From the NCBI RefSeq assembly GCF_013402815.2, contig NZ_CP058601.1, positions 2,418,001-2,482,000 on the forward strand: DNA of 64,000 nucleotides, in the 5' to 3' direction. The stretch's first letter is position 1. Every line of letters starts with the position of its first letter. The notes beneath the pieces are model-generated. The model did no database searches. It was not told the DNA's origin and saw only the letters and a list, made by a program, of their open reading frames with translations. Positions 25,331 through 49,860 of this stretch are shown here, piece after piece. This DNA comes from Natrinema halophilum (lineage in GTDB: Archaea; Halobacteriota; Halobacteria; Halobacteriales; Natrialbaceae). Made by a program: the position numbers and the translations under genes.

Positions 25331-26122
25331 ATGAAAATTCTCGTAACGGTCAAAGAGGTGGCGACCGTCGAAGACGAGTTCGAAATCGACGGCACCGAGA
25401 TTGCAGATCAGTACCTCGGTGCTGATCTCAACGAGTGGGACGACTACGCGATCGAAGAAGCCGTCCAGCTCCAGGAAGCCGGGATCGCCGACGAAGTCGT
25501 AACCGTCACCATCGGGCCGGAAGACTGTGAACAGACCATCCGCCAGGCGCTTGCCAAAGGCGCCGACCGCGCCGTCCGCGTCTGGGACGACTCCCTCGAG
25601 GGCGTCGACCTGCTCGACGTCAACGCGAAGACGGAGATCTTGAGCGCCGTCGTCGAGGAAGAAGAGCCCGATCTCGTCTTGAGCGGCGTCCAGGCCGGGG
25701 ACGACAGTTTCGCCGCGACCGGCGTGTCCGTCGCCGAAAACGTCGGCTTCCAGTGGGGCGCCGTCGTCAATCACCTCGAGCACGACTTCAGCGGCGACAC
25801 CGTATCGGTGCGCCGCGAACTCGAGGGCGGCGTCGAAGAACTGAACGAAATCGAGCTGCCGGCCGTGCTGACGATCCAGACCGGGATCAACGAGCCCCGC
25901 TACGCCAGCCTCCGCGGTATCCGCCAGGCCCAGCGCAAGGAACTCGACGTCCAGAACCTGGCCGACCTCGGCGTCGACGAGAGCGCCATCGATGCCGACC
26001 TCGAACTGACGGACATGTACGAACCCGAAAGCGAAAGCGACGTCACCGTCTGGGAGGGCGGCCCGGACGATACCGCCGCAGAACTCGGTGAACTGCTCCG
26101 CGACAAGGGGGTGGCACAATGA
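25331..26122 (+). CDS. etfB: Electron transfer flavoprotein, beta subunit
   Basis: A 263-residue EtfB. The start MKILVTVKEVATVEDEFEI, the AMP-binding region (VLSGVQAGDDSFAATG) and the signature LPAVLTIQTGINEPRYASL with a following Arg/Lys-rich GIRQAQRKE are typical. With EtfA it carries FAD and shuttles electrons from acyl-CoA or other dehydrogenases to the quinone pool. Its stop overlaps the etfA start (ATGA). A T-rich GGTTTACGG about 30 bases before the ATG is a candidate TATA box for a leaderless message. Confidence 0.96.
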   Translation: MKILVTVKEVATVEDEFEIDGTEIADQYLGADLNEWDDYAIEEAVQLQEAGIADEVVTVTIGPEDCEQTIRQALAKGADRAVRVWDDSLEGVDLLDVNAKTEILSAVVEEEEPDLVLSGVQAGDDSFAATGVSVAENVGFQWGAVVNHLEHDFSGDTVSVRRELEGGVEELNEIELPAVLTIQTGINEPRYASLRGIRQAQRKELDVQNLADLGVDESAIDADLELTDMYEPESESDVTVWEGGPDDTAAELGELLRDKGVAQ

Positions 26123-27072
26123 CCGACGTGCTCGCGGTCACCGACCACCGCCGCGGCGAACTCCGCGACGTCAGCTACGAACTCATCACCGCCGGCCGCA
26201 GCCTCGCCGACGAAACCGGCGGCGACCTCCACCTCGCGGTCATCAGCGGCACCGTCGACGACTTCGCCGACAAACTCAACCGCGAGGGCGTCGACGCCAT
26301 CCACACCGTCCCCTACGGCGAAGAGTTCAACCACGACGTCTACACGCAGGCGATCACGCAACTCTACGACGAACTCGCCCCCCAGTACGTCCTTACGCCC
26401 AACAGCGTCAACGGACTCGACTACGCCCCCGCCGTCGCCAACGCACTCGACCTCCCGGTCGTCACCGACACCATCGGCCTCGAAACCGACGGCGAAACCC
26501 TGATCGCAACCCGTGAAATGTACGGCAGCAAAGTCGAGACGACGAACGAACTCGAAAATAACGCCGTCGTCACGATCCGCAGCGCAGAGTGGCCGGCCGC
26601 CGAAGGGACCGGCGACGCCACGATCGACGCCTTCGACGCCGACATCGACGAAGCCGCCATCGGCTCGACCGTCAGCGGCTTCGAGGAAGTCGGCGGCGGC
26701 GACGTCGACATCAGCGAGGCCGAACTGCTGGTCTCGATCGGGCGCGGAATCGAAGAAGAGGAGAACCTCGACCTGATCCGGGATCTGGCCGACGCCCTCG
26801 GCGCGACGCTGTCATCCTCGCGTCCGATCGTCGACAACGGCTGGCTGCCCAAAAACCGCCAGGTCGGCCAGTCCGGCAAAGTCGTCACGCCCGACGTCTA
26901 CATCGCGATCGGCATCTCCGGTGCCGTCCAGCACGTCGCCGGCATGAAGGGGTCGGATACGATCGTTGCGATCAACACCGATCCCAACGCACCGATCATG
27001 GACATCGCCGATTACGCGATCCACGACGACCTCTTCGACGTCGTCCCGGCGCTTATCGACGAGTTCCAGTAG
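26119..27072 (+). CDS. etfA: Electron transfer flavoprotein, alpha subunit
   Basis: A 317-residue EtfA. The C-terminal FAD domain is clear: [20 protein letters not shown], then [16 protein letters not shown] and [17 protein letters not shown]. It overlaps etfB by four bases and forms the ETF heterodimer. The last 44 bases before the final stop base recur as a perfect direct repeat 89 bases downstream (see repeat). No fix-type quinone reductase genes are adjacent. Confidence 0.96.
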
Positions 27073-27204
27073 CCCGATCGCGAACGAAGTGAGCGGCTTT
27101 TTGGTCGAGGTTTTTGCACGAGGGTGAGCGGTGCGAACCCGAGTGGAAAAAGGTCGGACTGACCTCTTCGACGTCGTCCCGGCGCTTATCGACGAGTTCC
27201 AGTA
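27028..27204 (+). repeat. Duplicated etfA 3' end around a T5/A5 element
   Basis: The 44 bases at 27028-27071 (end of etfA up to the second base of its stop triplet plus A) are repeated exactly at 27161-27204, and the second copy also runs into a stop (TAA). Between them lie 89 bases containing CTTTTTGGTCGAGGTTTTTG, then GCGAACCCGAG and GGAAAAAGGT. The two T5 tracts just after the stop would also work as an archaeal terminator. TTTTTGCACGAGGG and CCCGAGTGGAAAAA are imperfect inverted repeats. Confidence 0.95.
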
Positions 27205-27344
27205 ATCGAACCGCGACCGACGCCCGGTTCGGAGGCCGAAGGCCGAGAACCACGTTATTCTGACGGACGCAGCCGGAAGGAAGTGAGGAGTCTTTCTCGT
27301 GAACGTAGTGAACGAGGGCTCGAAAGAGTGCAGCTCTTCCGGTG
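27205..27344. other. Hairpin-rich intergenic spacer after etfA
   Basis: No gene is supported. The stretch has an imperfect palindrome around AGGCCGAAGGCC (27232-27245) flanked by GGTTC and GAACC, and a second hairpin at about 27322-27340 with arms AAGAG and CTCTT. Such stems are frequent between haloarchaeal genes. Confidence 0.6.
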
Positions 27345-27430
27345 TTTTTGGTCGAGATCTTTGCACGAGGGTGAGCGGAACGAACCCGAGTGGAAAAGGG
27401 TGGACTGGCCGCTTCGACGTCGTCCCAGCA
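27345..27430 (+). repeat. Second, decayed copy of the etfA-tail element
   Basis: Starting GTTTTTGGTCGAGATCTTTG, this repeats the 27097-27183 element with scattered changes. It is followed by GGACTGGCCGCTTCGACGTC and a degraded piece of the etfA tail. It lies about 130 bases before the polyprenyl synthase start. The remaining bases to 27558 hold that gene's promoter and nothing else I can name. Confidence 0.88.
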
Positions 27431-29723: not shown

Positions 29724-30719
29724 ATGATCTCGAAGGGCTGTGAGCAGTGCGCGAAAGGCGGCAAGATGGTGATGTTCGTCTACGGCTACTGCGACCAGCG
29801 CGACTGCTTTTACTGCCCCCTCGGTGAGAATCGCAAAAACGTGACCGACGTCTACGCAAACGAACGACTCGTCGAAACCGACGACGACGTCCTCACCGAA
29901 GCCCGTCGGATGGACGCGCTCGGAACGTCTATCACCGGTGGTGAGCCCCAGGAGGCGCTCGGTCGGACCTGCCACTATCTCGAGCTACTCAAAGACGAGT
30001 TCGGCGAGGACCACCACACGCACCTCTACACCGGCATCACCGGCGGTCGCGAGAACATGCGCCGCCTCTCGGAAGCCGGCCTCGACGAAATTCGCTTCCA
30101 CCCGCCCTACGAACAGTGGGGCGACCTCCACGGAACCGAGTGGGAGGACATCCTCTACATCGCCCGTGACGAAGGACTGACACCCGCATTCGAAATTCCA
30201 GGAATCCGGGCCGAAACGGAATTTCTCGAATTCATCGACGAGGGGGCCGCCGAGTTCTGTAACGTCAACGAGTTCGAGATGTCCCAGGGGAACTACCGCC
30301 GCATGCAAGAGCAAGGGTTCGAACTCAAAGAAGGCCACATGAGCGCCGTCGACGGCTCCAGAGAGGACATCCTCGAAAAGATGGGCGATCACGAGCGAGT
30401 CTACTTCTGTACCTCCGTCTTCAAGGACGCCGCCCAACACCGCCGCCGCCTGAAGCGCATGGCCCGTAACGTTCGACGCGAGTTCGACGATATTACCGAC
30501 GACGGGACCCTCGTCTACGGCAAAACGGACACCGAGCCAGCGCGCCTCGAGGCGCTTGGCGTCCCCGAAGAATTCTACACCGTCAAGTCGAACCACGTCG
30601 AAGTCGCCTGGTGGCTCTTAGAAGAGATGATCGAGGAAGGCGACCTCGAGGGCGGCGAGATCGTCGAGCAGTATCCAACGTACGACGGTCAGGTCGTCGA
30701 ACGGACGCCGCTCGCGTAG
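29724..30719 (+). CDS. Radical SAM protein with CX4CX2C cluster
   Basis: A 331-residue cytosolic radical SAM protein. The cluster motif is YGYCDQRDCFYCPLGENRK, spaced C-x4-C-x2-C instead of the usual x3. An earlier pair CEQCAKGGK lies at residues 6-9. The SAM-binding GGEP equivalent is SITGGEPQEAL, and the barrel continues through TPAFEIPGIRAE. The family occurs in many archaea and I know of no assigned reaction. No carrier or maturation gene is adjacent. Its last 32 bases are duplicated downstream of a short element, as in etfA. Confidence 0.88.
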   Translation: MISKGCEQCAKGGKMVMFVYGYCDQRDCFYCPLGENRKNVTDVYANERLVETDDDVLTEARRMDALGTSITGGEPQEALGRTCHYLELLKDEFGEDHHTHLYTGITGGRENMRRLSEAGLDEIRFHPPYEQWGDLHGTEWEDILYIARDEGLTPAFEIPGIRAETEFLEFIDEGAAEFCNVNEFEMSQGNYRRMQEQGFELKEGHMSAVDGSREDILEKMGDHERVYFCTSVFKDAAQHRRRLKRMARNVRREFDDITDDGTLVYGKTDTEPARLEALGVPEEFYTVKSNHVEVAWWLLEEMIEEGDLEGGEIVEQYPTYDGQVVERTPLA

Positions 30720-30827
30720 TCCCGTTTTTGGTGCAGATTTTTCGAGGAGGGGACGCGAACGAAGTGAGCGAACCCGACGAGAAAAAGGTGCATGCGTCAG
30801 GTCGTCGAACGGACACCGCTCGCGTAG
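30688..30827 (+). repeat. Duplicated radical-SAM 3' end around a T5/A5 element
   Basis: Bases 30688-30719 (gene end with TAG) recur at 30796-30827 with one mismatch, again including TAG. The 76 bases between contain GTTTTTGGTGCAGATTTTTC, then GCGAACCCGA and GAGAAAAAGGTG, the same layout as the element after etfA. The T5 tracts directly after the stop should terminate transcription. Confidence 0.95.
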
Positions 30828-49752: not shown

Positions 49753-49774
49753 GCCGACCGTCCGTCGAGGACTA

Positions 49775-49860
49775 TCGCGGCCACAGCCGAGAACTGTCGC
49801 GGCCACAGCCGAGAACTGTCGCGGCCACAGCCGAGAATTGTCGCATCCACAGCTGAGGAC
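49775..49860. repeat. 22-bp tandem repeat, about 3.9 copies
   Basis: The unit TCGCGGCCACAGCCGAGAAC plus TG is repeated at 49775, 49797 and 49819 (last with one change), with a degenerate fourth at 49841. It fills most of the space between atpD and the DUF6276 gene. Confidence 0.95.

Follow-up and report, generated by a model that had tools for sequence, protein, structure and literature searches.

Two hairpin elements follow etfA in the analysed window (64,000 nt of Natrinema halophilum contig NZ_CP058601.1), and each is succeeded by sequence resembling the end of the gene itself. This arrangement raised the question of what the segment at 27345-27430 represents and how it arose. A preliminary description had taken it for a decaying second copy of a unit made of element and etfA tail, produced by repeated duplication at the same place. 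The parts of the locus are as follows:

26119..27072, + strand: etfA (FixB), the host gene (ETF_alpha match, E=4e-36)
27028-27072, + strand: current end of etfA, its last 45 nt, with stop codon TAG
27073..27097, + strand: spacer of unit 1, 25 nt
27098..27158, + strand: element 1, of the form TTTTTGG-TCGA-GG-TTTTT-hairpin-AAAAAGG-TCG (73.1 bits with covariance model R1)
27161..27205, + strand: tail copy 1, 44/45 identical to 27028-27072, with stop codon TAA, not TAG
27206..27344, + strand: spacer of the older etfA unit, 139 nt, homologous to the sequence 3' of etfA in congener G017
27345..27405, + strand: element 2, decayed (54.1 bits with R1)
27407..27429, + strand: tail fragment 2, GGCCGCTTCGACGTCGTCCCAGC, 20/23 identical to the etfA tail at 27028-27050, without a stop codon

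Comparison of the two elements confirmed that the element recurs after the first unit: positions 27345-27401 are 91% identical to 27098-27154 over 57 nt, and the alignment runs in register into the tail (27098-27183 against 27345-27429; 86 columns, 89.5%, 102 bits). The fragment behind the second element does resemble the etfA tail, as had been proposed; it comprises just 23 nt, lacks a stop codon and begins behind an element end near 27405. Tail fragment 2 was also placed along 400 kb of the same genome. A score of at least 20/23 was reached at one of 799,120 placements, a 23/23 match that we interpret as the etfA copy of contig C2, whose region lies in the sample; the next best placement scored 19, and no unrelated one reached 20. 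Furthermore, the 21-mer GGACTGGCCGCTTCGACGTCG at the second etfA junction (27402-27422) recurs unchanged at the junction 3' of etfA in congener G007. Because 20/23 exceeds all unrelated placements and the junction 21-mer is shared with G007, the similarity is not what chance would give in GC-rich DNA; the in-register placement test and the empty matched control described below refute this explanation, the probability of which we regard as negligible.

The second unit also proved to be the older, decaying one. The base of its stem is now unpaired (GGTCGA as compared to GGGTGGA) and its T run is interrupted (TCTTT). Four relatives (G016, G019, G002 and G024) carry an even more decayed remnant at the position of element 2 with a newer unit ahead of it, and in G011 the remnant of the old element is found alone behind etfA. 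The etfA locus in the window has the same layering as its relatives, with two recognisable layers, and tail copy 1 is read as an earlier gene end that was displaced.

A second etfBA copy is present on contig C2 of this genome (locus L001, G000 C2:200442-203812) and is 99.94% identical to the window copy (window 25331-27070). The similarity begins at the etfB start codon and breaks off 2 nt short of the end of the etfA stop; the flanks are unrelated to those of the window copy and contain no element. The near-identity of both copies looks like the result of a recent gene conversion restricted to the coding region. In Haloterrigena sp. KLK7, a plasmid carries etfBA as well, followed by a gene for an Fe-S binding protein. 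In G004, the left half of the element 3' of etfA continues into unrelated sequence (L013), which looks like an insertion sequence.

The unit is not peculiar to etfA but belongs to a family found throughout the haloarchaea. The window itself contains a second host gene:

29724..30719, + strand: gene of a radical SAM-like protein (Radical_SAM E=7e-5; 23.4 bits, below the Pfam cut-off of 29.5)
30688-30719, + strand: its tail, the last 32 nt
30725..30793, + strand: element 3' of the gene, with stem TGCA/TGCA (80.4 bits with R1)
30796..30827, + strand: tail copy, 31/32 identical, the one change being synonymous (ACG/ACA)

Covariance model R1 revealed nine clear copies in the genome, three of them in the window; the remaining ones form a perfect 3 x 205 bp array 3' of another gene (L187), lie singly 3' of Dph6-like and thiolase-like genes, or, in one case, lack a tail copy. 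Searching DNA with the etfA element by itself had returned only the two etfA copies, and an exact pattern only two in the genome; both were too strict. In 400 kb sampled elsewhere in the genome, R1 found no element, and no gene-end copies were found apart from tandem repeats. Names of host genes other than etfA and the radical SAM gene were assigned by recognition from sequence. A tandem repeat of 44 bp is located at 49766-49860 of the window.

The elements constitute a covarying hairpin family of about 60 nt across haloarchaea. Their general form is TTTTTGG-TXYA-GA-TTTTT-hairpin-AAAAAGG-TY'X', and X and Y covary with their partners (CC/GG, CG/CG, GC/GC and GG/CC). Among 33 sequences, 99.1% of pair cells were paired, and covariation was 0.304 as compared to 0.099 after shuffling and ≤0.08 with the partners slid. 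No match above the gathering score was obtained in Rfam 15; sub-threshold matches were to one miRNA family, none of them on the element. A pattern built from the etfA and radical SAM elements matched in 28 of 61 related genomes, the reversed pattern in none. Strong R1 matches were confined to the window's own order among 247 genomes of the phylum, and when 84,980 species were scanned, all matches listed for the strict pattern were haloarchaeal. R1 also picks up other hairpin types (TTTTTCGCCCACGT, TTTTTAGCGTAG and TTTTCCCTCCAGG), so that counts based on R1 alone are not counts of the gene-end unit. Such types, at L210, L211, L221, L240, L202, L214 and L218-L220, mostly lack tail copies and are perhaps separate haloarchaeal repeat families. 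Variants of the element itself were observed too: long forms (L159, L146, L141) have two extra hairpins between GGTC and GATTTTT (TCTTCGCGAA..GCGAAGG and GGCGA..TCGCC), and in hairpin-deleted forms (L158, L160) TTTTTGATCGA or TTTTCGGTCGA is fused straight to the A run and GG, while the tail copy or its start persists.

Copying of the adjacent gene end is a regular property of the family. A copy of the sequence just upstream follows 60 of 82 distinct strict-pattern elements from named species and none in the matched control; the copied sequence mostly consists of the last codons of a gene with its stop codon, and every tail-bearing copy is oriented away from the upstream gene. Host genes include etfA, the radical SAM gene, purH-like, Dph6-like and thiolase-like genes and others, several of which recur in many species at an identical junction: purH has one junction (-42) in many species, the radical SAM gene at least three (-32, -49 and -60). 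In most cases the tail copy begins 5-9 nt past GAAAAAGGT. The junction filler closes with the 3 nt standing immediately ahead of the tail in the gene, followed by an insertion of 1-2 nt, in 14 of 31 hand-collected and 15 of 39 script-collected cases, two sets that overlap in host genes and are not independent; permutation gave means of 2.0 and 2.2 and maxima of 7 and 8 in 5000. A bulge motif of the tRNA-splicing type at the junction is speculation.

These features bear on the main rival explanation, in which a non-autonomous, site-specific mobile element is moved by an integrase- or endonuclease-like enzyme acting in trans, gene tail and copy being the halves of its attachment site. The anatomy is that of attL and attR at a gene 3' end; the right end is sharp, 5-9 nt past GGT, and is combined with a recurring junction rule; and one gene can show the same junction in many species, as purH does at -42. 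However, the etfA, SAM and purH sets include no ORF-bearing form, and the copies lie at most about 310 nt from the stop codon. Several junctions occur within one gene (SAM), no viral carrier was found in IMG/VR, where the pattern scan of viral contigs gave no match, and there is no enzyme candidate. We consider this explanation possible, if rather unlikely.

Differences between gene and copy fall on codon positions 37/30/133, with 110 silent and 50 changed codons. A diversity-generating retroelement, with the tail as variable repeat and the copy as template, was rejected, as the differences are mostly silent third positions and the copy does not have A at all of them in the loci examined. Selection on the copy as coding sequence in its present place is not claimed: the third-position bias is equally expected if the gene alone is constrained, and several copies have lost the stop codon. 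Strong concerted evolution was expected but not found, the distance between gene and own copy being 5.1 for purH as compared to 5.6 between species. In the Dph6-like gene of L114 (G030 C162), an internal tandem duplication of the tail shifts the frame, and both copies have an N at the corresponding position; this duplication may be an assembly error.

The origin of the tail copies was analyzed by comparing them with gene ends of relatives. In G013, purH ends in CACGATTAG and is followed by a short spacer, a hairpin-deleted element and a tail ending in CACGACTGA with its flank. purH of G008 has no element; it ends in CACGACTGA, with the flank that stands behind the tail copy in G013. The G013 tail copy is 97.6% identical to the G008 tail and its flank 90%, whereas the flank 3' of the G013 gene stop reaches just 45%. 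Such comparisons on the etfA, SAM and purH-like genes, made against relatives without a detected copy, yielded seven clean cases on our reading of the scores: the relatives' native gene end is found again in the tail copy with its flank, and the gene has another tip, stop and spacer. G018 has G007 as its sister (95% over three genes, as compared to 88% for G022), yet purH of G018 has a tip and spacer resembling G022 and carries the native end of the G007 type behind the element. Spacers of the same type, although noncoding, are often at least as similar between species as the gene bodies (G002/G019 99% vs 84%; G018/G019 89% vs 80%; G018/G022 91% vs 88%), and different types are unrelated. The gene end has thus been exchanged as one unit, with the old end left behind; we hold this replacement with displacement to be highly probable.

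The same observations bear on two further explanations. In a transposon-like insertion, the direct repeats flanking the element would be a long target-site duplication of 30-180 bp that survives only if it spans the stop codon. Some elements of the IS4 group are reported to generate long target duplications. Against this explanation, the element has one orientation behind all of the host genes examined, identity of the repeats often ends at the stop codon even though a spacer separates the stop from the element, stop codons often differ between copies, as do the 3' ends, and the insertion of 1-2 nt is found on one side only. We rate it as very improbable.

Local tandem duplication alone, the view of the preliminary description, would have tail and terminator duplicated by hairpin-triggered slippage or break repair, with decay of the distal unit. 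Whole units do amplify in tandem. Arrays with periods of 92-215 bp occur in many genomes, perfect or near-perfect ones being L187 (3 x 205 bp) and L095 (3 x 145 bp), where the last of the three 145-bp units is followed by a different, native tail. L192 of the window's genome is one extra unit that ends in a half element, and a short match to the gene is found close to each junction. Natrarchaeobius chitinivorans AArcht7 has five tandem elements spaced 124 bp (L287). At etfA, however, the spacers of the two units are unrelated, and since they differ (139 nt as compared to 25 nt), unit 2 did not arise by simple copying of unit 1. Native ends are displaced in seven cases, and gene tip and spacer can be closer to other species than to the sister. 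Hence, the view that the two etfA units are local copies of each other is not supported; repeated events at one place and tandem copying of whole units elsewhere in the genome hold, but the basic event is replacement of the gene end with displacement. Local duplication as the sole cause is weakened and appears improbable.

We favor, with moderate confidence, the reading that the segment at 27345-27430 belongs to a recurrent gene-end cassette of haloarchaea and represents its older, decaying layer, the cassette being horizontally replaced by recombination and subsequently expanded, lost or left to decay. The cassette comprises the 3' tip of the gene including the stop codon, then a spacer and the hairpin element of about 60 nt preceded by T tracts. 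Recombination between species is frequent in haloarchaea, and cassettes would pass between species by this route. Shared coding sequence would serve as the first recombination arm; the second would be the right end of the hairpin, either joined to the recipient's own tail or, once a tail copy is present, recombining through that copy. The first junction is stereotyped, with 3 nt of the gene, an insertion of 1-2 nt and a position 5-9 nt past GGT. The element probably acts as a transcription terminator, as suggested by the T tract 3' of the stop codon, which is also a feature of haloarchaeal terminators; a conservative terminator scan yielded one weak site, near the shuffle expectation. A terminator at this position would render the displaced end silent and free to decay, and recombination between tail and copy could expand units or remove them precisely.

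Several observations weigh against exchange by recombination. For many filled loci, a search for close relatives free of the element found none, and empty sites could also result from precise loss between tail and copy, so that gain and loss are not always separable. Distances between a gene and its own copy are barely below the distances between genes of different species. At 30-60 nt, the tail-copy arms offer little length for homologous recombination, and the first junction requires a joining step, for which no enzyme was identified. Finally, spacers hold modules common in haloarchaea and belong to unrelated types, which weakens the argument from spacer identity. More generally, and only tentatively, we propose that noncoding, hairpin-ended cassettes swap the final codons of specific genes, along with stop and terminator, between species throughout the haloarchaea by a dedicated joining reaction, and that the earlier ends remain as a dated series.

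If this is true, C-terminal codons, stops and terminators of housekeeping genes can be exchanged between species as a small unit, independently of the gene body and without an enzyme encoded in the unit, and the displaced ends document successive exchanges at one locus in readable form. The proposal bears on the remodelling of haloarchaeal gene ends and offers a concrete junction with testable biochemistry. No earlier description was found in the open-access literature. REP, BOX and MITE repeats are likewise short, palindromic, intergenic and clade-specific; the haloarchaeal unit differs from them in carrying a copy of the particular gene's tail, with a fixed junction, and in its fixed orientation to the upstream gene. 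Integron attC sites resemble it as imperfect, bulged hairpins 3' of a gene end in arrayed units, but in the haloarchaeal units the tail of one and the same gene recurs instead of different genes being carried, and no attC core motifs were seen by eye. Ordinary haloarchaeal T-stretch terminators share T5 runs 3' of genes, and in Haloferax volcanii termination reached 95% with a T5C stretch (PMC7237163); as far as we found, no tail copies are reported 3' of ordinary ones, and none was present in the 400 kb sample of the window's genome.

Integrase attachment sites (attL/attR) at gene 3' ends have in common with the haloarchaeal unit that the end is rebuilt by the element and the native end lies on the far side; here, too, gene-end direct repeats flank the insert. 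The haloarchaeal inserts differ in their size of about 90-300 bp and in having several junctions per gene, and at the etfA, SAM and purH loci no integrase gene was found in the insert and no long form was present. Closest in outcome are the mobile-ORF hybrids of fungal mitochondria, described for atp6 of Allomyces macrogynus and for atp6, atp9, cox2 and nad3 of Glomus (PMC3630166). There, the insert provides a foreign C-terminal tip with its stop, and the native C-terminal end stands behind the insert; the two tips are more alike in protein than in DNA, a horizontal origin was inferred, and the unit encodes an endonuclease (PMC3630166). The order of inserted tip, insert and displaced native tip recurs in the haloarchaeal unit, together with the greater likeness of the tips in protein and a presumed horizontal origin. 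In contrast, no endonuclease ORF was found in the haloarchaeal inserts of all orthologous sets (about 60-300 bp), and the unit is a noncoding hairpin of about 60 nt that occurs at many genes and in tandem arrays in archaea. The haloarchaeal unit is thus like the mobile-ORF hybrids in outcome without being a member of them.
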